From an uncultured Verrucomicrobia subdivision 3 bacterium (GTDB lineage Bacteria; Verrucomicrobiota; Verrucomicrobiia; Limisphaerales; UBA11358): a stretch of 34,075 nt of DNA. The stretch lies in assembly GCA_903944085.1 (NCBI GenBank), contig CAJAQO010000004.1, forward strand, positions 1-34,075, in the 5' to 3' direction. A program made the translations under genes and the position numbers. The notes beneath the pieces are model-generated. The model worked only from the letters and a program-made list of their open reading frames with translations. It had not been told where the DNA came from and ran no database searches. Below, piece after piece: positions 3,201 to 23,164 of this stretch (within the stretch, counting starts at the first letter, position 1; every line of letters begins with the position of its first letter).

Positions 3201-6200
3201 GACATTGCGCGTCTTCCATGAGCGTGCCCCGGCGGTTGCCGTTGACATAGACTGCAATGTAACGGCGATTCAACCACGGCACGCCAAGCGCGCGAAGAAA
3301 AGTATTTGCCGTCTGTTCGCGTTGAATACTCGCATCGTCGCCCGCGCCGTTGCCGGGCTGATGAATTTTGTTGAACGACGTCGCGCCGAGAAACTCGTCG
3401 TCATCCTGAAAAGTCCATTTGTAATGGCACAGCGCGCCGGTGGGCGTGGTGAATCCCTGATGATACGGACTGCCGGCGAAACGCGCCTGCGCGTTGTAAA
3501 TGATGCGGTTATTGTTGACCATCGTGCAGTCCCACGACTCGTTGCTCAAATCCGACAGCGCCGACCAGCGCGTCGCGTTCGTCTGCGTGATCCACAAATG
3601 ATAGACACTGAAGCTGCCGCTGGGGTTGCTGTCGCCGAACATCACCACGCATTCCGGCGGGATGCCATTATTGTTCAGTAGCGCTGGGAAACGCGTCGCG
3701 GCTCCGCGCGTGTCGGTCGCGGAAATATAAAACGCGACAATCGCGTTGCTGCTCGTTACGGGCGCGGGAATCGTGGCGCTGAAAATCCCGTCGTTCGCCA
3801 GCGCGTCGCCGCCGGTGCCGTCATCTTTCATTAGCACGGAAGTGTAATTCATCGAGGGATCAATCCGGTAATTGAGCGTCAGATTTTGCACGCCGTCGGG
3901 ATCATGCACGCGCGCCGTCACCACGACCGGCTGGTTCGTGGCCGGCACAGCGGGCGAATGACTGACTTCATAAACCGCCGGCCCGGCGTTCGTGGCGTAA
4001 CGGCTGTTAGGCATTCCCGGCGTGCCAAGATTCGGCGGCACCGGCAGCGTGCCGGAGGCTTCGAGCCAGTTGCCGTTGAGCCGCATCAACACTTCCGGCC
4101 AGCCGCGCAGCCAGCGGGCTTTGAACCGCAGCGTCGCCATTTGTCCGGCGACCATTTGATTTGTCGTCAAAGCCATTTCGCAGGAATTGTCGCCGGGCCA
4201 GATGCGGTCGCTGCAACGAATGTGCAAGGAATGGCTGCTGTTGTAGCCTTCGTTTTCCTGGCTCGAACGCACTTCGCAGCCTTGAAAAGTCCAATTCGTG
4301 CTGCCGCTTTCAAAATCAGGATTGGCGACGAGATTGATGGAACTCGAATTGGAATGAACTTCGATGTTGTCCACCAGACATTCGCCCACGTCGAGAATTC
4401 CAATTTGCGCGTAATCTATGGACGGATCGTAGTTTTTGCCGAGATCCAAAACGCCGGTGTTTTCAATGTCGGTCCAGGACGATTTATGCGTTTCGTCGCT
4501 GTCGCCCCAGTTCGCGGCGAGGCGATGGTTCGCGCGCGGGTCGAGCAATTCCAAACTGCTCCCGCCGCCGGATGACCATTGGCCCCAGCGTCCGCCGGTG
4601 CCGTAAGTCACTTCGTCCTCGACGACGTAAATGACATTCGTGGCCAGACCGTGGCTGTTGGTGACGGTCAGGTTTTGCGGCATCGCCAGCGCCACGCGCT
4701 CGCCGTTGTGCGACAAACGGCCGCCAAAATTTCCGAGCGTATTGGAGGAATTCAGATTCGGATATTTCGCAAACAGATTCGTCATGTTGGCCGCGAGGAC
4801 AAGATAGCCGTTCGCCGCCAGCGTGGTGTTCGTCGGAAACACAAACGTGACGCCGAAAGTAAACTGCCAGTTGGACAAATTCACCGCATTTGTGCCTTGG
4901 TTATAAATTTCGATGTATTGGTCGGCATCGTTGCCGCTGATCGGGTCATACATCAATTCGTTGATGACGACTGTGCCGATCAAAATCGGCGCATTGCTCG
5001 CGCCCGGCGTGCGCGCGCTCAGCGGATAAAACGCGTTGGCTCCGTCCGGCCAGCGGCCGAGCGAAACACCGTCAGCTTGGGCTTCGTATTGCACCGCGTC
5101 CAAGATGCGGCTGCCATCCGGCTTGATGAAATAAATCGTCGAGCCGGAGCCGTCGGGAATAAAACCGAGTTGGTTTTGATCGAACGAAATAAATCCGCTT
5201 GGCGCAATCGTCGTGCCGTTCGGAATGACAAATTTATTTGTAGTCGTGTCGTCGGTGAGGATGCAGCCGGAAAGGTCGTTGGTCAGGCTGCTGTGGTTGT
5301 AAAGCTCGACAAATTCAAGCACGGCGGGATTTTCCGAGTGCGCCAAAATTTCGTTGATGACGACGCTGCGCAGCAGGCTGGGGCGAAAACTTTCCATCGC
5401 GCCGGGCGAGCCGCCGACCACGTCGCTGATGTCCCACGCGCGCGGGCCTTCCTCGCCGTAAGTCGGATTGGCGAGCACGATGGAATGGCCAGAGCCGTCG
5501 GCTGCAACCGGCCACGGATACACGTTGGAATACGGCACGGTCAGTAGCACCGCGCCGACTTCGTCGAGCAGTTGGAGCGTGCCGGATTTTTTCAGGCTGC
5601 CGGTGTAACCGACCACATTCGTGACTCCGTAAACCGCCGTGATGTCCGCCGGCGACGCCGCAAGACAAATAAATCCGCCGCCGGGAATCGTCGTGTTGGT
5701 CGGAAACGTGTAGCTCATGTTGTCGCCGACAACTTGATAGCTGCTGATGTCCTGGAAAAACGGATTGGAATTGTAAATTTCCAAAAATTCCAGATTGCGG
5801 CCGTCCGTGCGCGGCGCGGGTTTATACATGATTTCCGAAATCGCAATCGGACTCTTGCGGCTGGACGGCCCGAGCTGGTCGTGCGGATTGACGATGGTCG
5901 CCACCACGGCGTTCGTGCTCGTGTCAGAAACGTTGCTGAATTGCGCGGTCGTGGTCAGGCTGCTGTTGTGGCTGCTGACAAACAGGCCGAAGTAAATTTG
6001 CGCCGGCATCGAAATGGTGACGCTGCCGAGTGGCGTCCAGTTCACGCCGTCGTAGCTGCCGAAGCCGGTGAACACGTTGCCCGCGCGTTTGAGCCGCAGC
6101 CAGGTGTTCGGATAATTCGCCGGAAAATTTCCCGTGACGACATTCGTCGAATAGGCCAAGCCGCGATATTCAAAAAACGTGTCGTTCATGTCCGGCGTGG

Positions 6201-8571
6201 CGACGCTGGCGGCGAAACGGCTGCCGGGATCGAGCGTTTCGCGCGCGAGCAAACCGGCCTTGGCCCACAAATCCGACAAACCGAGGCCGGCCAATCTCGC
6301 GGTGACATCGAAATCGCCGGTGCGCAGTTGATACTGAAAACTGAATTGATCCGCCACGCCGCCGAGATCACTTCCCGCCGCCGTCACATTCACGCCGTTG
6401 CTGACGACGGTAACGACGGACGGAATTTGTCCGCTGCCGATGTCCTGCGAGGCGAATTGCGTGGCGACAAAACTGGCCAGCGTGTTTGTGGCAATCGTGT
6501 TCGGCGTCGCGGCGAGATCGCGGACATTGTTGATGACGACTGCATAATTGCTGCCGTTAACCAGCGGCGCGGTGGTGAGCAAAATTGTGTTGTTCGTTCC
6601 GTAAAACGCCGCGCCGGTGACGCCGATGCCGTTGGTGAAAACATAATTTGCAAAGTTTGTCGCGCTCGCCGCCTCGACGGGCTGGGAGAAAACAATTTGC
6701 ACATTGGTCGGGCCGAGATTGAAAATTTGCGCGACGGTCGGCGGCACGGTGTCCACCGACACGGTGAGCACGGCGTTGCTGCTGAACTGCGCCTTGCCGG
6801 GCACCATCACCACCGCGCGATAAACCGCGCCGCTGTTGTTGGTCGCCAGCGGCGGCGTGGTGTAGCTCGCGCCGTTCGCGCCGGCAATGTCGAAGCCGTT
6901 CAACTGCCACTGGTAGCTGACGTTGGTGGTGAGGCTCGAATTGCCCGTGCCGGCGACCGTGAACGTGGCGGATTGTCCGGCGAGCACGCTCGCGTTCGCC
7001 GGTTGTTGCGTGATGGCCACCGAAGCGTTGGTGCCGTTCAAATAATTGCCGAGAAATTGTCCGGGGATAACGATCCATGTCTGGTTCGTCGGCGTTTTCC
7101 AAGCCGCGTAAAAATAATCGCTGCCGGTGTTCTCCTTCATCAAGCCCTCGATGTAATATCGCTGGCCCGCGTTGAGCGTGACGGCGACGGACGTGTGCGA
7201 ATCGAAGCTGCCGCCGGCGCCGGTTTCCTGCGAGAGCAAAACTTTGCCGGTCGGACTGTCGTTGGTGCTCAAAAACAATTGCGAATTGTCGTCGCTGTGG
7301 ACGGCAAAATAATATTGGCCGGTGAGCGGCGGCATCAGCCAGCCCCACATCCGGCCGCCGTAATAGTTGGTGATATTTTCCACCGGCCAGCCCATGCTCG
7401 GCGGAAAATCCACCGCGCCGGGATTGTTCGGAAAAGCGGCGTTCGTTGTCAGATTGATCACCGCCGCGCCGGTGATGTTGAAATATAACTCGCGTTCCAT
7501 GTAGCCAGACGCGAAGCCGATGTTCGTGAAAACGGTCTGCGAATTGGTGGCGATGAATTGCAGTCCGGTCGCCGCGTCGGCCACGCCATTGACCGTCAAC
7601 CAATGCGGCGCGAACGGCAACTGGCTCGCTGTGGTGAGTTGCACCGTTTGATTATTGGTGCCAAACGCCGCACTGAAAATCGTCAGCGTGCCCGTGGAAT
7701 TGGTCAGCTTGTAGTTGGCGAGATTCGTCGCGCCGGCGGCTTGAACCGGCATGGAAAACACCACCTGCAATAAATTATTTCCGCTGTTGGTCACCGCAAT
7801 CACCATCGGCGCATTTGTGTTGGTGGAGGCGAATTCCTGGAGCCGCAGGCCGTTCAGCGCATAGCAATACGGCCCGTTGGCGAGGCCGACGCCGGGAATC
7901 GTGTTCGTGTATTGTGTCGTTTTCACCGCAAAAGTGCCGCTGGTGCCGGGAATAATATTTTCCCAATCCGCCATGTCGCCGTTGGTGTTGATGCCGGTGC
8001 AGACGGCAACTTGATTTGTCGCGAGGCCGTTGGTGTAACAGCCGCTGGTGTGTGCGCTGGTGAAAGAAACCGCGCCGTCAATTTCAAAGAGCGACCAGCG
8101 ATTCGTGTAAGTCGAAACTCCGCGCACGGCGCTGCCTTTGAAACTGTAAGTCTTGTAAGGATTCAGCCCGGTGAACGTGTAAGTCACCGTTGCGCTACCG
8201 GTCACATGGGCCACCGCGTCGGTGTTGGTGCCGCCGGAAAAATCCACGTAACCGTTGAATACATTATAGAGAGGCGTGCCCGCAGCGGGATTGGCACCCG
8301 GTGACGACGCCGCGACCGTGCCGGTGCGGGTGATGGTGACGACGACCGGCAGGTTCGTGCCCGCAATGATGTCCTTCAACGCGCCGCTGGCTCCGGGGCT
8401 GTTGCCAAAAATGTTCCACGTCGTCGCATTGGAAGAGGTCGTCACGCCGATGGTGCCGGGCGCGTGATCGTTGAAAGCAATAAATTGTGCCTGTGCCGGG
8501 CCGGAGAGAAGCAGCGCCCAAACCAGGCAAGCCGGTTGAAGCCAGAGCGATGGCAGGAGTTTTGGTTTCAT
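286..8571 (-). CDS. Giant exported multidomain protein: PA14, Ig-like, lamin-tail and CotH-kinase domains
   Basis: This 2761-residue protein is predicted to be secreted. ATG 8571 is chosen because it begins a signal peptide (MKPKLL, hydrophobic core, cleavage near AQA/QF, about residue 28) and has GAAAG upstream; the frame stays open to 8763 but those codons look non-coding. Approximate order: N-terminal beta region 30-345; PA14 350-494; Ig-like 519-604; SbsA-type Ig-like 604-702; laminin-G/DUF1349-like sandwich 704-884; three lamin-tail domains 903-1334, each opening with an I-x-E-I/L-M-like motif; carbohydrate-binding-like module 1400-1517; CotH-kinase domain 1650-2032 with HTAGNWD and LMWDFN; three more lamin-tail domains 2127-2590; putative Ig domain 2594-2685; C-terminal YQLEYSDDL...FFRVRLLP module typical of verrucomicrobial exoproteins. 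PA14 and sandwich domains suggest carbohydrate binding. CotH family members phosphorylate proteins in spore coats; the target here is unknown. It appears monocistronic. Confidence 0.95.
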   Translation of the reverse strand: MKPKLLPSLWLQPACLVWALLLSGPAQAQFIAFNDHAPGTIGVTTSSNATTWNIFGNSPGASGALKDIIAGTNLPVVVTITRTGTVAASSPGANPAAGTPLYNVFNGYVDFSGGTNTDAVAHVTGSATVTYTFTGLNPYKTYSFKGSAVRGVSTYTNRWSLFEIDGAVSFTSAHTSGCYTNGLATNQVAVCTGINTNGDMADWENIIPGTSGTFAVKTTQYTNTIPGVGLANGPYCYALNGLRLQEFASTNTNAPMVIAVTNSGNNLLQVVFSMPVQAAGATNLANYKLTNSTGTLTIFSAAFGTNNQTVQLTTASQLPFAPHWLTVNGVADAATGLQFIATNSQTVFTNIGFASGYMERELYFNITGAAVINLTTNAAFPNNPGAVDFPPSMGWPVENITNYYGGRMWGWLMPPLTGQYYFAVHSDDNSQLFLSTNDSPTGKVLLSQETGAGGSFDSHTSVAVTLNAGQRYYIEGLMKENTGSDYFYAAWKTPTNQTWIVIPGQFLGNYLNGTNASVAITQQPANASVLAGQSATFTVAGTGNSSLTTNVSYQWQLNGFDIAGANGASYTTPPLATNNSGAVYRAVVMVPGKAQFSSNAVLTVSVDTVPPTVAQIFNLGPTNVQIVFSQPVEAASATNFANYVFTNGIGVTGAAFYGTNNTILLTTAPLVNGSNYAVVINNVRDLAATPNTIATNTLASFVATQFASQDIGSGQIPSVVTVVSNGVNVTAAGSDLGGVADQFSFQYQLRTGDFDVTARLAGLGLSDLWAKAGLLARETLDPGSRFAASVATPDMNDTFFEYRGLAYSTNVVTGNFPANYPNTWLRLKRAGNVFTGFGSYDGVNWTPLGSVTISMPAQIYFGLFVSSHNSSLTTTAQFSNVSDTSTNAVVATIVNPHDQLGPSSRKSPIAISEIMYKPAPRTDGRNLEFLEIYNSNPFFQDISSYQVVGDNMSYTFPTNTTIPGGGFICLAASPADITAVYGVTNVVGYTGSLKKSGTLQLLDEVGAVLLTVPYSNVYPWPVAADGSGHSIVLANPTYGEEGPRAWDISDVVGGSPGAMESFRPSLLRSVVINEILAHSENPAVLEFVELYNHSSLTNDLSGCILTDDTTTNKFVIPNGTTIAPSGFISFDQNQLGFIPDGSGSTIYFIKPDGSRILDAVQYEAQADGVSLGRWPDGANAFYPLSARTPGASNAPILIGTVVINELMYDPISGNDADQYIEIYNQGTNAVNLSNWQFTFGVTFVFPTNTTLAANGYLVLAANMTNLFAKYPNLNSSNTLGNFGGRLSHNGERVALAMPQNLTVTNSHGLATNVIYVVEDEVTYGTGGRWGQWSSGGGSSLELLDPRANHRLAANWGDSDETHKSSWTDIENTGVLDLGKNYDPSIDYAQIGILDVGECLVDNIEVHSNSSSINLVANPDFESGSTNWTFQGCEVRSSQENEGYNSSHSLHIRCSDRIWPGDNSCEMALTTNQMVAGQMATLRFKARWLRGWPEVLMRLNGNWLEASGTLPVPPNLGTPGMPNSRYATNAGPAVYEVSHSPAVPATNQPVVVTARVHDPDGVQNLTLNYRIDPSMNYTSVLMKDDGTGGDALANDGIFSATIPAPVTSSNAIVAFYISATDTRGAATRFPALLNNNGIPPECVVMFGDSNPSGSFSVYHLWITQTNATRWSALSDLSNESWDCTMVNNNRIIYNAQARFAGSPYHQGFTTPTGALCHYKWTFQDDDEFLGATSFNKIHQPGNGAGDDASIQREQTANTFLRALGVPWLNRRYIAVYVNGNRRGTLMEDAQCPDGDVVKEHFPNDADGWLYKMQPWFEFGPAPGSASIPFVNDAWCTLSNYVTTGGVKKVARYRYNFEIRRTPASANDFTNVFSLIGAANSYNSPNYVANMENLADINNWMRVFAANHTAGNWDSFGAQNGQNLYGYLGALGTKYSLLMWDFNIVLGNGGSWGPGSNIFKVTDPITGKLFTTPVFRRMYWRALQELVNGPLGLANTGPLLDAKYNSFVANGQAVEDPNTNIKPWLSQAQTSIAAQLAVENATNFNVNPNVIVSNDVAYVSGIAPVNVDTVWINGAAWPVTWTTTTNWVATIPLKPGTNALSVVGVDKNNQPLPGDSTNLLVNFNGTAPSPVGSVVINEIMFNPFAPNAQFVELYNNSTNTAFDLSGWDFKGLAYTFPSGSLIVPNTFLVLAANSPAYAAAYGATNPVFDIFPGTLQLNGETLSLVQPGTNSASDVTVTKVKYAGALPWPTNANGTGLSLQLLDPQQDNWRAGNWSGATVTPGATNAVFTNLPPFAPLWLNELQADNLTGITNRAGQRTAWLELYNPTTNIVALTNLYLANNYTNLTAWTFPTNASINAGEFKIIFADGQTNLSTTNELHTSFILPSGTGSLALSRLFNGQPQVLDFIDYAGLGVNHSYGSYPDGQSFSRQDFFYPTPGETNNAASAPLTVFINEWMAGNTHTLPDPLDSNKYDDWFELYNPSSNTVNLAGCFLTNALSSTLYSGSQIPAGYTIPPQGFLLVWADKKSPTGSGDLHVNFKLSKSGTSIALYNASSNLVDYVTFGAQSSDISEGRYPDGAANLYFMPTATPRTNNIVPNTPPVWNVVSNQLVVLGQTLSLTASATDADFPAQTLTFSLGTNAPAGAFINSFSGNFSWTPTNAPATNLISLIVTDNGTPSLSATQTFLVTVVLPPQLGGVSLGANQLIFTWLSYAGLNYQLEYSDDLTVSGWAPVGSSIAGTGANISVTNSLDASSQRFFRVRLLP

Positions 8572-8994
8572 TATTTTCTTTCGGTAATCAACGGTGAAAA
8601 TCGGGGCACCAGGGCGCACGAGTTTGGGGACGGTTGAGGCATTCGTAATGCCAGACGTTCTGGATGGCAAAAAGGAATCATGCAAAACCATGAGTTCAAA
8701 GCATCGGCCAGCGGCCGGCCTTAAATCCATTGGGTTACTCAGGTATTTAAAGGCTGCTTCCATCGGGTTTCAAGCGGTATTTTCCACCAGCCATCGCGAC
8801 CGGCCATTCGCGGACACGGTTTCACCGGCCATCGCCCGGCGAGATTTCGGCTGGCGAAATCATCCGTCGGCGCGATTAATCAGCATGAGCATCTCCATTT
8901 GCCGAAGCCCGGTGTGGCCTGCCTCTTTTCCACGCGGCGATTGACACGCGCAAACTTTTTTGCGGAAATAAGCAAAACCAATTTCCAACATCAG
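8572..8994. other. Divergent intergenic region between the giant exoprotein and acs
   Basis: This 423-bp spacer holds the upstream regions of two divergent genes and no convincing ORF. On minus, TTGAAA (8768-8773) and TTAAAT (8745-8750) are separated by 17 bp, a plausible sigma-70-type promoter for the exoprotein that would give a leader of roughly 170 nt. On plus, a consensus TTGACA lies at 8941-8946, just ahead of acs, but the -10 hexamer is unclear. A small inverted repeat CCAGA-CGT-TCTGG sits at 8651-8663. Confidence 0.5.
8745..8773 (-). promoter_or_regulatory. Possible promoter of the giant exoprotein gene
   Basis: Minus-strand TTGAAA (8768-8773) and TTAAAT (8745-8750) are 17 bp apart, close to the housekeeping consensus. 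This is pattern matching only. Confidence 0.35.
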
Positions 8995-14004: not shown

Positions 14005-14082
14005 AACTGCGGTGCCGAGTGACAATTAATGATTGGCGTCCGGCGCAAGCCGGCGGCCGGCGGATTGTGCGGCGGGGTTCCG

Positions 14083-14110
14083 TTCAACCTTCAACCTCCA
14101 ACTGGCAACC
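14083..14110 (+). repeat. 28-bp repeat of 7-bp period immediately before the hemA start
   Basis: Four 7-bp units lie end to end: TTCAACC, TTCAACC, TCCAACT, GGCAACC. The block ends on the base before the preferred TTG start of hemA, so it occupies the place where a Shine-Dalgarno would be expected; none is visible. Confidence 0.8.
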
Positions 14111-15157
14111 TTGATTTCCGTTGTTGTCATCGGTTTGAGCCACCGTTCCGCGCCCGTGGAGTTGCGCGAGCGTTTCGCCTTTGCCGGCGAAACGATTCCC
14201 GGCGCGCTCCAGGCCTTGCGCGACGCCGGCCTCGCCACCGAGGCCACGATTCTCTCGACCTGCAACCGCGTGGAACTTTACGTCGCCACGCCGCTCGCGG
14301 CCGAAACGGCGTTTGTGGAATTGAAAAAATTCCTCGTCGCGCATCACGCGTTCGACGGCGCGCTAGGCGATGAACTTTACACCTTCGCCGAGCCGCAGAG
14401 TTTGCATCATCTTTTCAAAGTCGCCAGTGGACTCGACTCCATGGTCATCGGCGAGACGGAAATTTTCGGCCAGCTCAAGCAGGCTTACGAACTCGCCTTC
14501 ACGCACAAGTTCACCGGCGCGCGGCTGAACAAAGCTTTCCAGCGCGCCTTCAACGTCGCCAAGCACATCCGCACCGAAACGAACATCCAGCGTGGCAGCG
14601 TGTCCGTGATGTCCGCCGCCGTGGAGCTGGCGGAAAAGATTTTCACCTCGCTCGCCGAGCACGAAGTCCTCGTCATCGGTGCCGGCGAAACCAGCGAAAA
14701 GACCGCCCGCGCCCTGCTCTCGCGCGGTGCGCGCGGCGTGGTGGTGACCAACCGTTCGCCCGAACGCGCCGCCGCGCTCGCGGCGGAACTCGGCGGCCGT
14801 TCCGTGCCGTTTGAGCAATGGCCGGACGAGTTTGAGAAAATTGACATCGCCGTCAGCAGCACCGCCGCGCCGCATCACATTCTTGACCGCGCGACGCTGG
14901 CACCGTTGATGAAGCGCCGCAAAAACCGGCCGCTGCTGCTCATTGACATCGCCGTGCCGCGCGACATTGACCCCGCCGTGAACGAGCTGGACAATGTCTA
15001 TCTCTACAACGTGGACGACCTGCAAAGCATCGCCAACGAATATCTGAATCTGCGCCGGGAAGAAGTGGCCCGCTGCGAACAAATCATCGCCGAGAAGGTC
15101 GCCGCGCTGCTCGCGGCCAATCAGGCTGCCGGCGCGCATCGCCACGGCGAAACCTAA
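14111..15157 (+). CDS. hemA: Glutamyl-tRNA reductase
   Basis: The enzyme reduces glutamyl-tRNA with NADPH to glutamate-1-semialdehyde, the first step of C5 haem synthesis. TTG 14111 is preferred because it gives VVVIGLSHRSAPVELRERF, the usual N-terminus; the frame is open to TTG 14033 but the extra codons are not family-like. Seen are the catalytic cysteine in STCNRVELY, GLDSMVIGETEIFGQLKQAY, the NADPH-binding VLVIGAGETSEKTARALL, VVVTNRSPERA, and VYLYNVDDLQSIANEYL. At 348 residues it is about 70 shorter than E. coli HemA (418): it stops early in the C-terminal dimerisation helices. No frameshifted remainder is seen after the stop. The start is flush with a 7-bp-period repeat and lacks an obvious ribosome site, suggesting weak or regulated initiation. 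Confidence 0.94.
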   Translation: MISVVVIGLSHRSAPVELRERFAFAGETIPGALQALRDAGLATEATILSTCNRVELYVATPLAAETAFVELKKFLVAHHAFDGALGDELYTFAEPQSLHHLFKVASGLDSMVIGETEIFGQLKQAYELAFTHKFTGARLNKAFQRAFNVAKHIRTETNIQRGSVSVMSAAVELAEKIFTSLAEHEVLVIGAGETSEKTARALLSRGARGVVVTNRSPERAAALAAELGGRSVPFEQWPDEFEKIDIAVSSTAAPHHILDRATLAPLMKRRKNRPLLLIDIAVPRDIDPAVNELDNVYLYNVDDLQSIANEYLNLRREEVARCEQIIAEKVAALLAANQAAGAHRHGET

Positions 15158-15290: not shown

Positions 15291-15324
15291 AAAAATAGAA
15301 GGAGCCGGACTTGCGTCCGGCTCC
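15291..15324 (-). terminator. Rho-independent terminator (minus)
   Basis: The hairpin GGAGCCGGAC-TTGC-GTCCGGCTCC (15301-15324) has a 10-bp perfect stem. Read on minus it is followed by TTCTATTTTT; on plus there is no T-run. It would end the RNA candidate, and possibly the HDOD transcript 257 bp upstream. Confidence 0.8.
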
Positions 15325-15500
15325 CTTGGTGATGAGGTATATACGCCTTCACCCAGACGTTCAGTTGGCGGCGCGGCCAACCTTAATCGCTGTCCAAACC
15401 GCGCCACAAGCAAAACCTCTGTGCCAACCCTAAACGGACAGCGAAATTATTTATGTGCTTACGTTGCCTCAGATGCCGCCATTGGCAAGGGCGTATATTG
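15295..15500 (-). ncRNA. Candidate structured RNA with nested helices and a terminator
   Basis: On minus, three nested helices lie in order. The closing stem pairs 15490-15498 with 15339-15347 (9 bp); after a C/A mismatch it can continue UUGCC with GGUGA. A second pairs 15475-15481 with 15366-15372 (7 bp). An apical stem pairs 15436-15444 with 15387-15395 (9 bp). Between the last two is a large asymmetric bubble (about 30 and 14 nt). A terminator follows within 15 nt. Alternative pairings exist: 15364-15369 with 15376-15381, and 15370-15376 with 15399-15405, both exclusive with the nested form. A TTGACA lies at 15520-15525, but the -10 is unclear. Closing stem, bubble and apical stem in about 160 nt recall 6S RNA; this is architecture only, not an identification. 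It could also be the 3' UTR of the HDOD transcript. Confidence 0.45.
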
Positions 15501-15580
15501 CGAGACATCAACTTTATTTTGTCAATCGGTCGCGCTGTGCTCCCCGGCTCTGCCGGCGGTGCGGGATTGTGCCACCGCTT

Positions 15581-16432
15581 TCAGACCTGCATCTGCAAGA
15601 GACTCGACACCCGTTCGAGCGCCCGGTTGACCTCTTGCACCACTGCCGGCACTTCTTTGGGCGTCAACTCCACCAAAGCCATGGCTTCCGGACAAGCTTC
15701 CACGGCCGGGGATGCGCCGACGGAATCCGCCATTAGCTGGTGTGCCAGGCTGTTGGCGAAATTCACCGTCGCCGCCAAACGCTTATGCTCGCCGGCCAGG
15801 GCGGGCGATTGATGATGCAATTGCACGGCGAGACAGATGCTGGCCGGCAGCCCCCAGCGGGCCAGCAACCGGCCCCCCAGCGCGGCGTGGCTGAAGCCAA
15901 TGGTCTTTTCCTCGAACGCCGTCAGTTCGGGACCGGTCCGGCGGGTGTTGTGCAGCATCTCGGCGTAAATGACACCTTCCAGCGAAACGAAAATAAGCTT
16001 GCCGATATCATGCAGCAGGCCGGCGGTGAACGCCACCGAGTCCATCACCTGCACCCGCCGGCCAAGCACGGAGGCGGCCACGGCCGTGGTGACCGAATGC
16101 CGCCACAGTTGCGTGGCATTCCAGGTATATTTGGAGCGCACCTCGCGCATTGTGCGCGAAGCCAGCAGGCCAATCACGATGGTGTAGATCTCGTATAAGC
16201 CAAGCCGGCTCACCGCCTCGAACATGTCTTCGGCGGGGTTCGTGCCTTGGAAATAGCCGCTGTTGCACCGTTGCAGCGTGGCGGCGGTCAGCGACGGGTC
16301 GTATTTGATCAGCTTGACGATGCGGTCAATGTCGCGGTCAGGATCGCTGAAGAGTTCAAGCAGTTGAACGGCCACTGTCGGGGCCGGCGGCAGGTTCTGC
16401 ACGTTGTCCAAGTAGCGGTCAATTATATTCAT
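15581..16432 (-). CDS. HDOD-domain signalling protein (first of two)
   Basis: This 283-residue cytoplasmic protein carries one HDOD domain, about residues 10-215, an HD-related helical domain found in bacterial signalling and gene regulation, usually without proven phosphohydrolase activity. Visible are LPPAPTVAVQLLELFSDPDRD, DPSLTAATLQRCNSGYF, LWRHSVTTAVAASVL and GLLHDIGKLIF, in which the HD pair is retained. The tail (residues 215-283) is helical. ATG 16432 has TGGA a few bases upstream. It is a paralogue of the next minus-strand gene, sharing domain order, the opening D-x-L-PPAP phrase and nearly the same length. It is the last gene of the chemosensory cluster, with its own 373-bp upstream region. 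Confidence 0.92.
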   Translation of the reverse strand: MNIIDRYLDNVQNLPPAPTVAVQLLELFSDPDRDIDRIVKLIKYDPSLTAATLQRCNSGYFQGTNPAEDMFEAVSRLGLYEIYTIVIGLLASRTMREVRSKYTWNATQLWRHSVTTAVAASVLGRRVQVMDSVAFTAGLLHDIGKLIFVSLEGVIYAEMLHNTRRTGPELTAFEEKTIGFSHAALGGRLLARWGLPASICLAVQLHHQSPALAGEHKRLAATVNFANSLAHQLMADSVGASPAVEACPEAMALVELTPKEVPAVVQEVNRALERVSSLLQMQV

Positions 16433-16805
16433 AGCACATTCCAGTGTTTGGCCGTTTCATTTCCTCAATTTGCTCTGAGTTTTCTAATGGTCCATGAAAG
16501 ATCAAGCTGAGGCAACTCGAATCACCCCATTTGGTGAAAACATCTCTAATGTGGAGTGCGCGGACAAGTCTGCGCTTTGGAACGGGGAGACACGTCTCCC
16601 CGTCGGAAAGCGACGAAGTGTTGCCGCACTCAAAAAACAACGGTGCTGTCGCCGGCCTGCCGGCGACGGTCGCGAATTCAAATGATCGTCGAATTCTTGG
16701 CGATTTCTCCGCGAGCAGCCGGCCGGGCCGGGTTCTAGGAATTGTGCTGCCCGGATTGCTGGAAGTGCCCAGATGAACTGATGGCATCGGATTGCGATAT
16801 ATGAT
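16433..16805. other. Spacer between the two HDOD genes
   Basis: No convincing ORF is seen here. The stretch holds copy 2 of the triple-hairpin repeat (16545-16629). A promoter for the downstream HDOD gene on minus would be expected, but no clear hexamer pair is seen. GCCGGC-C-TGCCGGC lies near 16655-16668. Confidence 0.5.
16545..16629 (+). repeat. Triple-hairpin palindromic repeat, copy 2
   Basis: The 74-bp core (16556-16629) is in inverted orientation to copy 1 (139-223). Its three palindromes are 16558-16575, 16584-16601 (GGGGAGAC-AC-GTCTCCCC, perfect) and a degenerate 16610-16627. Relative to copy 1 the middle stem replaces a T-A pair with G-C, a compensatory change. The TCTAATGTGGA flank is shared. 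Confidence 0.85.
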
Positions 16806-17678
16806 TCAGTTCGACTGGTTAAACTGGTTAAAAGTGAGCTTCGAGAATCCCTGGACATGCCGCAGGCCGTCATCAATTTGCTGGATCAGTTCGGGCAATT
16901 CCTTATCGGTCAAACCCAGCAGTGGCAGCGCGTTGGGATTGCAACGCGTGGTGTCGCACATCTGCGCCGCGTCAATGGACAGGAAATGGGCCAGATTATT
17001 TGCCAGTTTAATGATGGCCACCAGCCGCCCGGGAGCGGCGACGGAACTGGATGCGCTGTGATGGTGCCGCACGGCCGCCACAATAGTGTCGGGCAATCCC
17101 CAGCGCGCCAGCAACTCGGCCCCCAGCGCGGCATGTTCCACGCCGAAAACTTCCTGTTCCGCCCGGTCTAGCTTTAAATGGCAAACGCCATGCAGCCGCA
17201 CCAGCTCGGCATAGTGCGAATCCTCGACGGATGCCAAAATCAGCTTGCCGATGTCATGCAGCAGCCCGGCGGTGAAGGCGACCGCTTGAGGTTCATCCAC
17301 CCGTTTCGCAATGGCGCCCGCCGCCACCGCGCTGATCACGGAATGACGCCACAACTTGTTCAGGTCCATTCCGCCGAAAGTTTTCAGCCGGGTGAACGTG
17401 CTGGCGGTGACCAGCGCGACCACCGTGTTATACACCTCGTGGAAACCGAGGCGGGTGACGACTTCAAAGATGTCCGTTGCTGGCAGTGCGCCGCTGAAAT
17501 GCGCGCTGTTGCAGCGATTCAATACCTTGCCCGTCAGCGACGGATCATGCCGGATCAGCTCCACCACCCGGTGAATGTCCCGGTCAGGATCACTGAACAG
17601 GTCGAGCAGCTTGGTCGCCACAATCGGCGCCGGCGGAAGGTCCTTGACGGCGTCAATGTATTGGTCAGCGGATTGCAT
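16806..17678 (-). CDS. HDOD-domain signalling protein (second of two)
   Basis: This protein has 290 residues from ATG 17678 (MQSADQYIDAVKDLPPAPIVATKLL), which has GGGA about 8 bases upstream; the frame extends 18 codons further to 17732 without family support. One HDOD domain spans about residues 10-225: DPSLTGKVLNRCNSAHFSG, LGFHEVYNTVVALVTAS, LWRHSVISAVAAGAIAKRV, GLLHDIGKLI. The tail, with LPELIQQIDDGLRHVQGF, parallels the paralogue at 15581-16432. It lies 81 bp downstream of an MCP gene on the same strand, suggesting co-transcription and a role downstream of chemosensory signalling. The last codons (FNQFNQSN) derive from a 9-bp tandem repeat near 16811-16831. Confidence 0.92.
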   Translation of the reverse strand: MQSADQYIDAVKDLPPAPIVATKLLDLFSDPDRDIHRVVELIRHDPSLTGKVLNRCNSAHFSGALPATDIFEVVTRLGFHEVYNTVVALVTASTFTRLKTFGGMDLNKLWRHSVISAVAAGAIAKRVDEPQAVAFTAGLLHDIGKLILASVEDSHYAELVRLHGVCHLKLDRAEQEVFGVEHAALGAELLARWGLPDTIVAAVRHHHSASSSVAAPGRLVAIIKLANNLAHFLSIDAAQMCDTTRCNPNALPLLGLTDKELPELIQQIDDGLRHVQGFSKLTFNQFNQSN

Positions 17679-17759
17679 AATGATTATTCCCGGATGGCCG
17701 GTGGAGCCGCGACGGCAGCACCCAGCGGTCAAAATGTTTTACCGACCGACTTCAATGTT

Positions 17760-19775
17760 TCAAAAATCCTTGAAATCTCCGTCCAGCGGGATTTCGCTCC
17801 GGCGGCCGTTTGCCGCCGTCAAGCTCGGAGCCTGCGGCGCATGGCCGTTGCCATTGCCATTATGCCCGTTGGCGCTGAAGGCCGGCAGCCGGGAAGCGGC
17901 GGCCTTGGCCGGCTGCGATTCCTGTGTGCGCCCGAGGTTGGCGGCCGATGGCCGGCGCACCGGGGCTTCGCTCTTGCCGCCCACGAGCTGCAACAAATCC
18001 GCGACGGAATGTTTCATGACCTCGGCCTGTGAATTCAATTCTTCGGCGGCGGCGGCGCTCTCCTCGGCGGTGGCCGCATTGCTCTGCGTCACCTTGTCCA
18101 TCTGTCCTACAGCGGTGTTGATTTGCGTGATGCCCTCGGTTTGCTCGCGGGAAGCGTTGGCCACTTCGGTCACCAACTCATCCACCTGCCGCACCTTGGT
18201 GACAATCTCATTCAAAGCCGCCGCCACCTTGCCGGTGATTTCCACGCCCTGGCCGGTCTTGATGATGGCACCCTCGATTTTGCCGGACGTTTCCTTCGCC
18301 GCCTGCGCGCAGCGTTGCGAGAGGTTGCGGACTTCATCCGCCACCACGGCAAAGCCCATGCCGGCCTCACCGGCGCGCGCCGCTTCGACGGCGGCGTTGA
18401 GCGCGAGAATGTTCGTTTGAAACGCGATTTCATCAATGGTCTTGATGATCTTGGCAATGTCATCGCTCGACACCTTGATGGCGGCCATCGCGGCGGCCAT
18501 GGTTTGCATGTCGCCCACGCCCTTGTCGGCGGCGTCGCGGGCTTCCTTGGCGAGGTCATTGGCCTTCCGGGCATTCTCAGAATTGCGTTTGGTCATCGAA
18601 GCCATTTCCTCCAGCGAAGAACTGGTTTCTTCCAGCGACGACGCCTGCTGGCTGGAGCCTTCCGCCAGCGTCTGGCTGGCGGCGGAAACCTGGCCGGACG
18701 CGGCGGAAACCTGGTTGGAACCGTCATCCAGCGCATGAGCCACGGCGGTCAGCACCCGGTTGGAATTGCGGATGATGAAAAACGCCACGGTGAAGCCGAC
18801 CGCGAGCGCGACGACGAGTCCGAGAATCATCGTCCACGAAGCGGAGGTGAGTTTCTGGGTGGAGACATTGGCGGCCTCCACGGTGCGTTTCATGCCGGTG
18901 TCCTGGGTATCGTTAAGCAGTTCGTTCACCCGGCTAATCGCTTCAAGGCGTTTCATCGCCACATCGGAGAGCGCCTCATCGTCTGCCATGATTTGCTTCA
19001 TGGCCTCACGGTAGGCATTGGCGCTGACTTTGACGCGGGCCATCTGGTCAATGTTTTCCTGGGTATGAAGCAGCGGGGACAACACCTCGAACTTTTTGTT
19101 CATTACGTCGAAGTTGGTCAAACCTTCTTCAATGAGTTGGGAATCGCGGAGCGCCTGCGATTTGAAGGCCGCGATGCGCGCGGCATTCCCCGCCCCGCGA
19201 ATGTCATTCGCCAGCGCCAGCTGGTTGGCGCGCTCCTGCAACTTGGCCGGCTCGGTGTTGGTCTTGAGTTCGCTGGCGAGCTTTTCTTGCTCAGAAACAA
19301 TCAGCGTGTCAATGTAGGCAATGAAGTCCGCCGCCAGTCCATTCATCTTCTCCCGCGTGGCGGCGATATCCTTGTTCTTGGTTTCGGTCTGGGTAATCAG
19401 CTCCTCATAACTTTGCAGCGCCGGGTCCAGCGCTCGGAGATTCTCCTGCAACTTGACCAGCTCCGGATGCGCCTCCGAAAGTTTCTGGGCCAGCACCTGC
19501 TGGTGATGCACCTCCTCCAAAGCCTTGCGGGCGGCGTCCAGAAAAGCCGGCTCCGCCGTGTAGCCATAGCTGCGGGCGGCCAGCGCGGCTTGCGCGAAAG
19601 CACCCTGCAAATCCGTGGCGATCTGCGTCTCCGGCACGAAACTCTCCGCCAGCGTCTGCGCCTGGCCGCGCACCGACTTCATGCTGAAGACGGCCATGCC
19701 ACCCAGCAAAGCGGCGATGAAGATCAACGTTCCGAAACCGAGCGCGATTTTTTTTCCGATGGTCATGTTTTGCAT
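17760..19775 (-). CDS. Methyl-accepting chemotaxis protein 1
   Basis: This is a 671-residue inner-membrane chemoreceptor. A first TM lies at about residues 8-30, a large helical periplasmic sensor at about 31-312, and a second TM at about 314-335. A cytoplasmic signalling rod follows with its conserved tip [23 protein letters not shown] (about 448-470). Only about 25 residues separate the second TM from the rod, so no complete HAMP domain is apparent. The rod is nearly identical to that of the MCP at 21515-23164, indicating recent duplication or conversion, while the sensors differ. Residues 590-660 form a Gly/Asn/Ala-rich linker, and the protein ends [11 protein letters not shown] exactly like the other MCP. 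The gene follows cheW by 42 bp. ATG 19775 is used; ATG at codon 4 is an alternative. Confidence 0.95.
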   Translation of the reverse strand: MQNMTIGKKIALGFGTLIFIAALLGGMAVFSMKSVRGQAQTLAESFVPETQIATDLQGAFAQAALAARSYGYTAEPAFLDAARKALEEVHHQQVLAQKLSEAHPELVKLQENLRALDPALQSYEELITQTETKNKDIAATREKMNGLAADFIAYIDTLIVSEQEKLASELKTNTEPAKLQERANQLALANDIRGAGNAARIAAFKSQALRDSQLIEEGLTNFDVMNKKFEVLSPLLHTQENIDQMARVKVSANAYREAMKQIMADDEALSDVAMKRLEAISRVNELLNDTQDTGMKRTVEAANVSTQKLTSASWTMILGLVVALAVGFTVAFFIIRNSNRVLTAVAHALDDGSNQVSAASGQVSAASQTLAEGSSQQASSLEETSSSLEEMASMTKRNSENARKANDLAKEARDAADKGVGDMQTMAAAMAAIKVSSDDIAKIIKTIDEIAFQTNILALNAAVEAARAGEAGMGFAVVADEVRNLSQRCAQAAKETSGKIEGAIIKTGQGVEITGKVAAALNEIVTKVRQVDELVTEVANASREQTEGITQINTAVGQMDKVTQSNAATAEESAAAAEELNSQAEVMKHSVADLLQLVGGKSEAPVRRPSAANLGRTQESQPAKAAASRLPAFSANGHNGNGNGHAPQAPSLTAANGRRSEIPLDGDFKDF

Positions 19776-19817
19776 AAAAGAATGTTGGTGGTTGTGATTG
19801 GCGATTGTGCTTGGAGA

Positions 19818-20330
19818 TTAAATGGATTGGGTCATGGATTGGGAAACCTGACGCGGAGCCGGACTGAGCACCCGCTCGAGATTCAGCAGCACTTTGACGC
19901 CGCCGTTGAGTTTGGCCACTCCCAGAATGAACTGGGTGGAAATTTCGGTGCCAAACTCGGGCACCGGTTCGAGCTGAGTCGCCGCGATGTTGACCACTTC
20001 CTCCACGGTGTCCACCACCAGGCCCAACTGGCTCGCGTTGCCATCCGACCAAGTCACCTTCACCACGATAATGCAGGTTTGCGTGGTGGTCGCCGACGGG
20101 GCCAAACCGAAGCGCCGGCCCAGATCCATGACGGGAATGATCTTGCCGCGCAAATTGACCACGCCGCACACATGCGCCGGCATCTGCGGCATGGCCGTGA
20201 TCCGCGTCCACTGGATGATCTCGCGCAGCTTGAGCACCGGCAGGCCGTAGGTTTCTTTTTGCAGGGTGAACGTCAGGTATTTGCCCGCAAGGGCAGCGGT
20301 GTCCACCGGCGCAGCGAGTTCAGCAGTCAT
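19818..20330 (-). CDS. cheW: Chemotaxis scaffold protein CheW
   Basis: This 170-residue cytoplasmic adaptor couples chemoreceptors to CheA. The CheW fold is seen in KYLTFTLQKETYGLPVLKLREII, MPQMPAHVCGVVNLRGKIIPVMDLGRRFGL, and LGLVVDTVEEVVNI. The start is ATG 20330 (MTAELAAPVDTAALAGKY); the frame runs 27 codons further but through the upstream terminator region, which argues against the longer form. It is the first gene after a strong terminator (20381-20446), so it likely has its own promoter or is reached by read-through. It leads cheW-mcp1-HDOD in the same direction. Confidence 0.92.
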   Translation of the reverse strand: MTAELAAPVDTAALAGKYLTFTLQKETYGLPVLKLREIIQWTRITAMPQMPAHVCGVVNLRGKIIPVMDLGRRFGLAPSATTTQTCIIVVKVTWSDGNASQLGLVVDTVEEVVNIAATQLEPVPEFGTEISTQFILGVAKLNGGVKVLLNLERVLSPAPRQVSQSMTQSI

Positions 20331-20380
20331 AGTTCGCAATTTTCCATGGTTCCAGAGCCGCCCATCGCCGGGGCCGTTGC

Positions 20381-20446
20381 GGCAAACAAAAAAGGCACAA
20401 CTGGAAACCATTCTCTCAGCGAGAGAAATCGTTCAGTTGTGCCTTT
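20381..20446 (-). terminator. Strong rho-independent terminator in front of cheW
   Basis: A 13-bp perfect stem pairs 20391-20403 with 20434-20446, enclosing a 7-bp hairpin TTCTCTC-AGC-GAGAGAA (20411-20427). On minus it is followed by TTTTTTGTTT. It lies 51 bp upstream of the cheW start, so it either ends the upstream response-regulator transcript, or acts as an attenuator, or is the 3' end of a small RNA. Confidence 0.85.
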
Positions 20447-20567
20447 ATCTGACAGGCCCAAAGTCCTGTCCGCAAAAGCTCCCGCAACAATTGCGGGTCA
20501 AATTCAATTCTTCATCGGCCGCTCCGGAGAAAGCTTTAGAAATATTTTTTGAAGCCCATCCACCCAT
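20445..20567 (-). CDS. Possible 40-residue leader ORF ending at the cheW-leader terminator
   Basis: Minus-strand ATG 20567 opens 40 codons whose stop overlaps the foot of the terminator stem. The product begins MGGWASKNISKAF and includes NLTRNCCGSFCGQDFGPVR. GGCGG lies upstream and a stop codon directly precedes the ATG. No family is recognised. The frame crosses two hairpins (20481-20497 and 20451-20470). It may be a chance ORF, or a leader peptide for attenuation. Confidence 0.25.
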   Translation of the reverse strand: MGGWASKNISKAFSGAADEELNLTRNCCGSFCGQDFGPVR

Positions 20568-20599
20568 TTACATGCCGCCGCCCATTGCTCAAATGTCAC

Positions 20600-21346
20600 C
20601 TAGCGGAGCAGATTCTCGAGTTCCTTCCGCAGTTCGCCCAGCTCCTTGCTTTTAAAATGATCCTTGGTGTGGCCGAGGACGCTGATGGTCTTGCGCACAG
20701 CGTTGATCAATTCCTGCTTTTCCACCGCCGTATCCGTGCCCAGCCGTTCGCCGTCGTGAATCAACAAGTGTTCCAGATCCATCAAGCCGACGACAAGTTG
20801 GCGCAGCGTCAACCGCACATAGCTCTGCATCGTGGCCTGCCGGTTGGCCGGCGTGACCTGCTGGAGCAGCGCTTGAATGCGGCCGATTTCCCGCTCCCAA
20901 TCTTGCAGCCGTTGCCGGCTATCCTTCAGCACGCGCAAGTTCCGGCGTTCCGCCACCGCCGCGTCGAGCAGGCGGCAAAGCTCGTCCATGTCCGGCGGCT
21001 TGGTCAGATAGGCCATCACCCGCAGGCGCACCGAACGCGAAGCCGTCTCCACCGTGGGGCTGCCCGTCAGCAGGATTACCGGCAGCCCTTCGCTGACGCC
21101 CGGCATTTTTTCAATCAACTCCAGTTGAGAATTCCCCGGCATGTTGATGTCCGAAAGCAGCACGTCATACTCTTTCGTTCCCAGTGCCTCGGCGGCTTCG
21201 GCTCCGGAACTGGCAAAATCGCAGGCGAAGCCCGCGCGGATGAGACATTGGCCCACGCCGCTGCGCACTTGCGCATCATCATCGGCAAACAGGATGCTGC
21301 CACGGGCGGGCGGTTCAGGCGTGACGACGGTGTCGGGTTTGGTCAT
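20600..21346 (-). CDS. Response regulator with receiver domain
   Basis: In this 248-residue cytoplasmic protein, residues 16-125 form a receiver domain: acidic cluster D22-D24, phosphoacceptor D66 in LLSDINMPG, T94 in LLTGSP, and K116 in YLTKPP. The rest (about 130-248) is helical and charged, with coiled-coil-like stretches and no recognised DNA-binding or enzymatic domain, so an interaction or scaffold output is likely. ATG 21346 is used. It lies 168 bp downstream of an MCP on the same strand and is followed by the cheW-leader terminator. Its kinase is presumably a CheA encoded elsewhere, or another histidine kinase. Confidence 0.92.
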   Translation of the reverse strand: MTKPDTVVTPEPPARGSILFADDDAQVRSGVGQCLIRAGFACDFASSGAEAAEALGTKEYDVLLSDINMPGNSQLELIEKMPGVSEGLPVILLTGSPTVETASRSVRLRVMAYLTKPPDMDELCRLLDAAVAERRNLRVLKDSRQRLQDWEREIGRIQALLQQVTPANRQATMQSYVRLTLRQLVVGLMDLEHLLIHDGERLGTDTAVEKQELINAVRKTISVLGHTKDHFKSKELGELRKELENLLR

Positions 21347-21514
21347 GCGGCATTTATCGTTTTGCGACAGCGGTTCCCTAAAAGTTTGTTGAACTCGGTG
21401 ATATTGGAATCAAGCTACACGAAGCCCGCCGCGTTGGCTAGGCTGGTTTGTCGCCAGCAACATTTACTTTGAGCAAGCCAAAAGGGCGAGCGTTCACCAA
21501 AGCCGGCCCACCGT

Positions 21515-23164
21515 CTAAAAATCCTTAAAATCGCCGTCCAGCGGAATTTCACCCCGGCGCTTGGCGGTCGTGGACCAGCCGGCGGCGGCTGGAGCTTGGC
21601 CGTTGCCATTCGCATGGCCATTGGTCGGTGCGGGCCGTTTTGACTGCGGCCTGGCGGCCTGAAAATTTTTGTTCTCCACAGAGTGAACATTCGGCTGCCA
21701 GCCGGCAGCGGCAGGCTGGCCATCCACCAATTGCAACAGTTCGGCCACGGACTGCTTCATGAGTTCGGCCTGCGAGTTCAGTTCCTCGGCGGCGGCGGCG
21801 CTTTCCTCGGCATTGGCGGCGTTGCTCTGCGTCACTTTGTCCATCTGTCCCACGGCCGTGTTGACCTGCGTGATGCCGTCGGTCTGTTCGCGAGTGGCTC
21901 CGGCCACTTCGGTCACCAACTCATCCACCTGCCGAACTTTGGCGACGATGTCATTCAAGGCCGCCGCCACTTTGCCGGTGATTTCCACGCCCTGGCCCGC
22001 CTTGGTAATAGCGCCTTCGATTTTTCCGGAAGTCTCCTTCGCCGCTTGCGCACAGCGTTGCGCAAGATTCCGCACCTCGTCGGCTACGACGGCAAAACCC
22101 ATGCCGGCTTCGCCCGCGCGCGCCGCTTCCACGGCGGCATTCAGCGCGAGAATGTTCGTTTGAAACGCGATCTCATCAATGGTCTTGATGATCTTGGCAA
22201 TGTCGTCGCTCGACACCTTGATGGCGGCCATCGCGGCGGCCATCGTCTGCATGTCGCCTGCGCCTTTGTCGGCGGCGTCGCGGGCTTGCTTGGCAATGTC
22301 ATTGGCCTGGCGCGCATTCTCGGCATTGCGTCTGGTCATCGAAGCCATTTCTTCCAGCGAAGCACTCGTTTCTTCCAGCGACGAGGCCTGTTCGCTGGCA
22401 CCTTCCGCCAGCGTCTGGCTGGAGGCGGAAACCTGCGCGGCAGCGCTCGCCACCTGCCGGGAACCGTCGCTGAGGGAACTGCTGATGCCGCGCAAAATGC
22501 GCGCGGTGCTCCGAATGATGGCGAAGGCGATTCCGATCCCGGCCAGCGTGGCCAGACTTAAGCCGATCAAAATGCCCGCCTGGGACGTAACCACAGCCGT
22601 TTGAATATTCTTCGAGGTGCCATCGGCGTCCGCTTTGATGAAGTCAATGAACGCATCCAGCGCGGCAATATACTGGGCGTGGGCCGGATCAAATTCGCGG
22701 CGGCCAAGCAAATAGGCTTTCGCGCTGGCGTCGGTGTTGGTGGTGCCGGCGCGGCTTAAATCCATCACCAGCGCACGAACCCGGTTGTTTTCGGCACGGG
22801 CGATTTTGACTTTGTCCAGCAAGGCGCGGCCATTGGCATCCGTGATGAGCCGGTCCAGCGCGTCGTAAAGTTTTCCGTTGTCCACCGAACCAGCTGCCAT
22901 GGTGGCCTCCAGTTGCGCCATGTCCGCCTTGTCCACGCTGCCGATGTGCTTATAAATGAGTTGGACCTGGTCCTTGGCGTTACGCTGCACCTGATAAACC
23001 ATCTCGATGGCGGGGAGCGACTGTTTGGCAATGCGGTCGGAATGGCCGCTGATGGCAATCAAGCGGGTGAAGGCAAAAATGCCGAGCGCCAGGGCGATGA
23101 TAATCACGCTGGCAAAGCCGAACGTGATGCGTTTTCCAATAGTCAGGTTTTTTATAATTTGCAT
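21515..23164 (-). CDS. Methyl-accepting chemotaxis protein 2
   Basis: This is a 549-residue inner-membrane chemoreceptor. A first TM lies at about residues 13-33, a four-helix-bundle-like periplasmic sensor at about 35-190 (much smaller than in MCP 1), and a second TM at about 195-217. A signalling rod follows with [23 protein letters not shown] at the tip. As in MCP 1, no complete HAMP domain is visible after the second TM. The C-terminus has a Gly/Asn/Ala/Gln-rich linker and ends [14 protein letters not shown] 23164 starts the phrase [17 protein letters not shown]. Being first in the minus-strand cluster, its upstream region is the likely main control point and holds paired AT-rich palindromes. 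Confidence 0.95.

Follow-up and report, generated by a model that had tools for sequence, protein, structure and literature searches.

A predicted pseudoknotted RNA of the Limisphaerales and its paralogous copy between hemA and an HDOD gene

The locus and the conserved RNA unit

The window analyzed in this study is a stretch of 34,075 nucleotides from an uncultured Verrucomicrobia subdivision 3 bacterium. Between hemA and an HDOD-domain gene it contains, on the minus strand, a conserved unit of approximately 145 nt, terminator included, which by its sequence is a duplicated paralogue of an RNA present elsewhere in the same genome. The unit, its predicted helices (P1 to P5), and its neighbors are listed here; pairs described as double-changed have substitutions on both sides among the aligned copies.

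14033..15157, plus strand: hemA (glutamyl-tRNA reductase; Pfam GlutR_N, 3.3e-46), convergent
15299..15447, minus strand: paralogous copy of the conserved RNA, beginning with AUUUCGC and ending with the terminator stem; 167.1 bits with model R1 across 15291-15449; also supported by alignments A2 and A5
15299..15326, minus strand: intrinsic terminator, a 12-pair stem and then U-rich CTATTTTTAA; 9 of 9 counted pairs double-changed
15328..15332, minus strand: P4 3' strand, UCACC; same covariation test as its partner
15334..15340, minus strand: P5 3' strand, AUACCUC; same covariation test as its partner
15343..15348, minus strand: P3 3' strand, AGGCGU; same covariation test as its partner
15349..15353, minus strand: P4 5' strand, GGUGA, inside the P3 loop; pseudoknot with 15328-15332, 99.8% paired, 4 of 5 pairs double-changed
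15355..15360, minus strand: P3 5' strand, ACGUCU; partner 15343-15348, 98.8% paired, 3 of 6 pairs double-changed
15368..15377, minus strand: P2 3' strand, GCCGCGCCGC; same covariation test as its partner
15387..15396, minus strand: P1 3' strand, UGGACAGCGA; same covariation test as its partner
15398..15407, minus strand: P2 5' strand, GUGGCGCGGU; pseudoknot with 15368-15377, 99.8% paired, 9 of 10 pairs double-changed
15413..15419, minus strand: P5 5' strand, GAGGUUU; long-range partner 15334-15340, 6 of 7 pairs double-changed
15420..15434, minus strand: unpaired loop, UUUAGGGUUGGCACA; 12 of 15 columns at least 90% conserved (103 rows, A5)
15435..15444, minus strand: P1 5' strand, UCGCUGUCCG; partner 15387-15396, 95.1% of cells paired, 10 of 10 pairs double-changed
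15469..15473, minus strand: TCTGA, apparent -10 remnant of an ECF-type promoter (upstream regions compared by eye); the GAAC -35 box is missing
15581..16432, minus strand: HDOD-domain gene upstream of the window copy, same strand (Pfam HDOD, 3.2e-49)

Elsewhere in the window, lamin-tail (LTD) stretches occur six times in a 2825-aa open frame (286-8763, minus strand) that also has a CotH kinase domain. Two HDOD and two methyl-accepting chemotaxis genes lie on the same strand at 15581-23164 (minus), and 26413-30723 (plus) encodes a hybrid two-component protein that combines a regulator propeller with PAS, kinase, and receiver domains.

The original prediction was of a noncoding RNA with its own terminator, extending up to 15525 and built from three nested perfect helices around a bubble. 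All of the described elements were found on the minus strand:

15490-15498/15339-15347, minus strand: outer helix, 9 bp, perfect arms
15475-15481/15366-15372, minus strand: middle helix, 7 bp, perfect arms
15436-15444/15387-15395, minus strand: inner helix, 9 bp, perfect arms
15475-15498, minus strand: 5' arms of the 7-bp and outer 9-bp helices, outside the conserved RNA

When the 231 nt were shuffled 2000 times with dinucleotides preserved, no nested 9/7/9 set occurred. Nine-bp helices had a shuffle mean of 0.115; the real 231-nt sequence had four nine-mer matches, two of which probably come from a 10-bp terminator stem. The folding z-score was -3.5 for the 231-nt region and -5.0 for the conserved unit (15295-15447).

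A noncoding RNA with its own terminator was borne out by the terminator at 15326-15299 and by covariation in relatives. The boundaries and the bubble did not hold up: the conserved 5' edge in the alignment was 15447 instead of 15525, and of the described elements the inner 9-bp helix and the terminator alone were conserved, the two outer 5' arms lying upstream of the conserved block. The block that recurred in blastn comparisons, from window position 15447 to 15304 (minus strand) at roughly 72-86% identity, contained the inner helix and the terminator; both outer helices had their 5' arms outside it. In the 80 nt upstream, 8 nt complementary to the GGCGU strand were found in only 1 of 101 rows. 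Complementarity between the upstream region and the RNA was otherwise near the shuffle level (mean longest match, 6.37 vs 6.16), and reached 9 in three of the 101 rows.

Two other identities for the block were considered and rejected. The longest start-to-stop frame of each row, which may extend past the end, measured between 11 and 56 aa (median, 38), and so no conserved open reading frame was seen. Nor was the RNA found on phage or plasmid elements, in searches of viral_contigs with the exact pattern and of plasmids and phages by blastn with the other copy of the same genome (C63).

Fold and covariation

The two-page structure consisted of 47 pairs in five helices (P1-P5) and the terminator. 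The 3' part of the loop of P1 (consensus UCGCUGUCCG/CGGACAGCGA) pairs with the segment after P1 to give P2, and the GGUGA loop of P3 (consensus GCGCCU/AGGCGU) pairs with UCACC to give P4. P5 joins GAGGUUU in the P1 loop to a segment between P3 and P4 with the consensus AAACCUC; in the window copy this helix has one U-U mismatch. Comparison of the copies showed P1 and P2 to make up one predicted H-type pseudoknot and P3 and P4 a second, with P5 tying the P1 loop to the loop of the second pseudoknot.

Alignment A2 contained 30 oriented copies, and its column pairs were ranked by corrected mutual information. When the ranking was confined to column pairs able to pair in 90% or more of the rows, eight of the ten highest belonged to P1, P2, P3, P4, or the terminator; P5 ranked lower, and a few high-ranking pairs matched no helix. 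In this alignment 99.1% of cells paired, and 19 pairs were double-changed, compared with 6.3 in shuffles (0/500) and 6 or fewer in slid versions. RNAalifold alone gave P5 (6 of 7 pairs), P2, P3, and the terminator nearly whole, and placed other local pairs where P1 and P4 would be.

Alignment A5 contained 103 matches in 99 distinct rows, taken from 100 chosen sources rather than from every locus; L136 and L165 (cut by contig ends), L190 (a pattern hit without a model match), and L132 (by threshold) were left out. In the 99 distinct rows 98.0% of cells paired. Double changes were found at 41 of the 47 pairs, compared with 22.3 in shuffles (0/500) and at most 15 in slid versions, and in 525 cells, compared with 121 in shuffles. 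The weak pairs were the outermost pair of P1 (unpaired in 32 of 99 rows) and the last pair of P5 (unpaired in 24 of 99). The model used for search and alignment held the pairs of P5, P2, P3, and the terminator, so that the support from A5 for these leans toward the structure; P1 and P4 were absent from it as pairs. That G-U types are frequent points to RNA and not DNA as the paired molecule. Covariation among relatives, on which the original prediction depended, was thus clear.

Two mutually exclusive hairpins had been proposed for the 3' half of the RNA, GCGCCU/AGGCGU and GGUGA/UCACC, as the basis of a two-state switch. Judged by their sequences, these hairpins are P3 and P4, that is, the second pseudoknot. 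The alternative pairings are therefore real, and because both covary and can coexist as an H-type pseudoknot, two-state behavior is not needed to account for them, though it may occur.

Distribution, gene neighborhood, and promoter

By blastn (E < 1e-7) the RNA was found in 33 of 35 same-genus relatives and in 8 of 23 relatives from other families; a broader tally of 54/59 includes short matches at chance level (E <= 1). The own genome had two strong copies by model R1, the C63 copy (192.4 bits) and the window copy (167.1 bits), and four further matches of 18-24 bits that were taken as chance. Across the order, R1 had matches in 150 of 293 sampled genomes (97 of the 153 good ones) and in 68 of 118 genera, a list that includes a few weak matches with E between 1e-5 and 1e-3, which may be chance. 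Because 143 of the 293 genomes gave no match, the RNA is not universal in the order. A search of the class under stricter filters (completeness at least 80) matched 43 of 385 genomes, all within the same order. In the phylum, model R2 matched 4 of 387 genomes: the own genome, which was the only strong match, and three others at 25-28 bits that were taken as chance.

Named records yielded 99 core-pattern stretches, 80 of which were analyzed as loci. The titles among these 80 were mostly Verrucomicrobia, Verrucomicrobia subdivision 3, Limisphaerales, or Pedosphaera, and point to the Limisphaerales (Verrucomicrobiota) as the bearing order. Single stray titles (Patescibacteria, Methylacidimicrobium, Granulicella, and Akkermansia; the Granulicella record had no model match) are probably errors of binning or naming.

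The usual gene order, all on one strand, was zwf - pgl - RNA - accA - manA; in the own genome the neighbors were identified by Pfam as G6PD, Glucosamine_iso/6-phosphogluconolactonase, ACCA, and PMI_typeI_cat. The tally of neighbors covered 79 of the 80 named loci, which together hold 80 RNAs. Where there was room, zwf or pgl lay upstream of 44 of 69 RNAs and accA or manA downstream of 46 of 75; where both sides had room, both flanks were present for 32 of 65 and neither for 17. Tandem copies approximately 245-255 nt apart, each with promoter, RNA, and terminator, were found in two genomes. These arrays, three copies in L076 (4607-5263) and two in L077 (4741-5142), have a glutathione peroxidase gene beside them instead of pgl/accA.

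Upstream of the usual copy was the sequence TTGAAC-N18/19-TCT, which has the layout of ECF promoters; the portions of PMC8103513 that deal with such promoters give AAC in the -35 box and CGT in the -10 box as their hallmark. The pattern TGAAC-N17-20-TC[TAC] was present in 81 of 106 distinct upstream regions, compared with 1.2 in mononucleotide shuffles. The other 25 lacked it, including the window copy, where TCTGA alone remains. The 106 regions pool the named loci and the G loci, with identical 100-mers merged and a 26-bit plus-strand match (L132) excluded. Close relatives remain among them, so that the sequences in the promoter counts are related and hence not independent, and since the patterns were drawn up with the sequences already in view, comparison with shuffles makes the counts look more surprising than they are. 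By eye, the -10 box in other families reads more like TATCT. Most copies thus carry an ECF-type promoter, as expected of RpoE/sigmaE-dependent small RNAs, and the window copy lacks it.

In the own genome TTTGAAC-N18/19-TCT occurred 31 times, compared with 14 for the reversed control, and one of these sites lay 40 nt before an HtrA/DegP-like gene, whose protein has trypsin and PDZ domains. The gene htrA/degP is described as a classical RpoE target (PMC8103513, in the same portions). All 16 of the best same-genus htrA loci had TTGAAC-N18-20-TC[TAC] within 120 nt before the start (14 with TC[TA]; shuffled, 0.06), mostly 37-49 nt before it. By eye, the htrA -10 box is mostly GTCA, compared with GTCT in the RNA, and the -35 box and spacing are common to both. 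The htrA locus of another family (L259) also carried the pattern. Of the remaining htrA-like loci, 13 paralogues or members of other families, ten had no match and three had one further up only (L267, L268, and L272); the promoter type shared with this envelope-stress gene was thus found in the same genus and not near the start in those 13.

Of the 23 Sigma70_r2 loci in the own genome, 22 were examined; 20 were without the strict upstream pattern, and one had it only at -313. The one remaining candidate, an ECF sigma gene (L291/L300), was rejected as the regulator: it has a different -10 box, and of 30 relatives 17 lacked it (E <= 1e-25), including several that bear the RNA. As a separate observation, a near-invariant block, TTGAACCTTTGCTCGCYTCGCGCATTCC, stands a short distance ahead of the start of an ECF sigma gene (L300-L313; C123:25327-25869 in the own genome, and relatives) in 11 of the 14 loci matched, and the spacer between the boxes of this block is unusually conserved.

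Interpretation and comparison with known RNAs

The neighborhood raises the alternative that the RNA is a riboswitch-like cis attenuator of accA-manA, in which the pseudoknotted part would sense a ligand and the terminator would decide on read-through into accA. The knotted, sequence-conserved core followed by a terminator fits such a device, as do the frequency of accA or manA downstream and an accA start that often lies approximately 40-60 nt downstream on the same strand. We nevertheless consider an attenuator improbable. Boxes resembling a -35 and -10 of accA followed the RNA terminator, near the accA start codon, in 35 of 41 distinct cases (0.65 in shuffled sequences; this pattern, too, was written afterwards), and promoter, RNA, and terminator also occurred in tandem copies and where accA is not downstream, as in four copies (L079, L091, L094, and L112) with pgl upstream. 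Judged by sequence only, dependence of accA on terminator read-through was not found. Because accA has promoter-like boxes of its own and the RNA with its terminator occurs without accA downstream, the RNA is most likely a stand-alone transcription unit. By eye, accA is almost leaderless in appearance at several loci (L106, L107, L138, and others), with a -10-like box approximately 10 nt before the start codon. A 6S-like RNA that binds RNA polymerase, as the size argument of the original prediction had it, can hardly be correct: size and an own terminator are all that speak for it, RF00013 had no match at the site, the fold is pseudoknotted instead of forming a single long hairpin around a central bubble, and the 6S RNA of the genome is on another contig (C239, 59.2 bits; cut-off 46.4). 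As a whole, the earlier description was partly supported, being right on the RNA and its terminator and wrong on boundaries, fold, and 6S.

A trans-acting antisense RNA of the MicA/RybB kind, whose exposed conserved loop UUUAGGGUUGGCA would pair with mRNAs of envelope proteins, would suit the long unpaired conserved loop and the stress-type promoter, with its -35 box and spacing common to htrA in the genus of the window. A search for Hfq (PF17209), however, was negative in all 59 genomes of the order, some of which are incomplete, and positive in 5 of 14 control genomes, so that the Hfq expected for the RpoE-dependent small RNA class was not seen. The elaborate conserved fold is unnecessary for antisense action, and a conserved 5' seed is missing, the sequence ahead of P1 being variable. 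We consider this alternative unlikely. Three unpaired segments, AGGGUUGGCA, GUUG, and UCUGA, rank with the most conserved. Together with the lack of Hfq and the variable stretch before P1, they favor a stress-controlled RNA that would act by shape, with one conserved partner, rather than an antisense RNA of the seed type. Whatever the family does, the window copy could be a decaying duplicate without function, a possibility that we take seriously while leaning against it. The copy lacks the ECF -35 box, differs from the C63 copy at 32 positions, and has one broken P5 pair; against decay, 46 of the 47 pairs are kept, two terminator pairs have changed on both sides, and the terminator is intact. 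Since the -35 box is missing and a scan between the HDOD gene and the RNA found no terminator-like site, read-through from the HDOD gene is possible, and the window copy may be transcribed in this way or from an unrecognized promoter.

The reading we favor, with moderate confidence, is that of a free-standing, Hfq-independent regulatory RNA of the envelope-stress type with one conserved partner, the window copy being a paralogue. An ECF sigma factor of the RpoE type would switch the RNA on under envelope stress and would probably also read htrA/degP in the genus of the window. Without Hfq, the compact fold would keep the RNA stable and would expose its conserved segments AGGGUUGGCA and UCUGA to a single conserved partner. 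This partner would more likely be a protein than many mRNAs, and the RNA would titrate or guide it. The window paralogue would have kept the fold and lost the -35 box of its promoter. More tentatively, and with less than even confidence, an order-wide RNA whose interlocked architecture would be without precedent (two H-type pseudoknots with a loop-loop helix connecting them, and a highly conserved unpaired core) might act by its three-dimensional shape, whether protein-sequestering, ligand-binding, or catalytic, and might head an Hfq-free envelope-stress response in Verrucomicrobiota. A family with much covariation, a recurrent neighborhood, and a stress-type promoter offers a handle on RNA regulation in bacteria in which Hfq was not found, and on the way in which five mutually entangled helices are accommodated in 145 nt of RNA; models R1 and R2 allow it to be added to annotation.

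The comparison with 6S and riboswitch models that had been suggested for the RNA gave no Rfam family above threshold over it. In Rfam 15, searched with the whole window and 12 of 40 relative loci, no family exceeded its gathering score; the best matches below threshold were ftsZ-DE (21.9 of 72.2 bits, E 0.065), suhB/mmgR (25.3 of 41 bits, E 0.0022), and CC0196 (23.3 of 35 bits, E 0.0025). Apart from the 2017 survey of 224 motifs, which stood outside the comparison, the literature searched for Verrucomicrobiota RNAs yielded nothing relevant and at most an unrelated review on protein-only RNase P, and Verrucomicrobia are not mentioned in the main texts of PMC2864571, PMC8632094, and PMC6429828. 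The family is apparently undescribed, and an earlier description outside Rfam is possible.

Among known systems, 6S RNA (RF00013) resembles the Limisphaerales RNA in being a stand-alone RNA of similar length, and differs in its fold, in the lack of a model match, and in being present separately in the same genome. By definition, 6S RNA is a single long hairpin with a large central bubble and no pseudoknot. MicA and RybB are Hfq-dependent and have a 5' seed. In contrast, the Limisphaerales RNA is approximately 145 nt long, with interlocked pseudoknots, a variable 5' end, and no Hfq found. HDV-like and pistol ribozymes are compact pseudoknots, as is the Limisphaerales RNA, and their strand order, like that of STAXI, is other than in this RNA. 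The Limisphaerales RNA has no match over an Rfam threshold and is not known to cleave. STAXI shares with it the compact pseudoknots and, according to a section of PMC2864571, the occurrence in tandem repeats. The sigmaE-dependent MicA and RybB of enterobacteria, described in a portion of PMC1804206 as approximately 70-80 nt long, are like it stand-alone small RNA genes behind a conserved ECF-type promoter.
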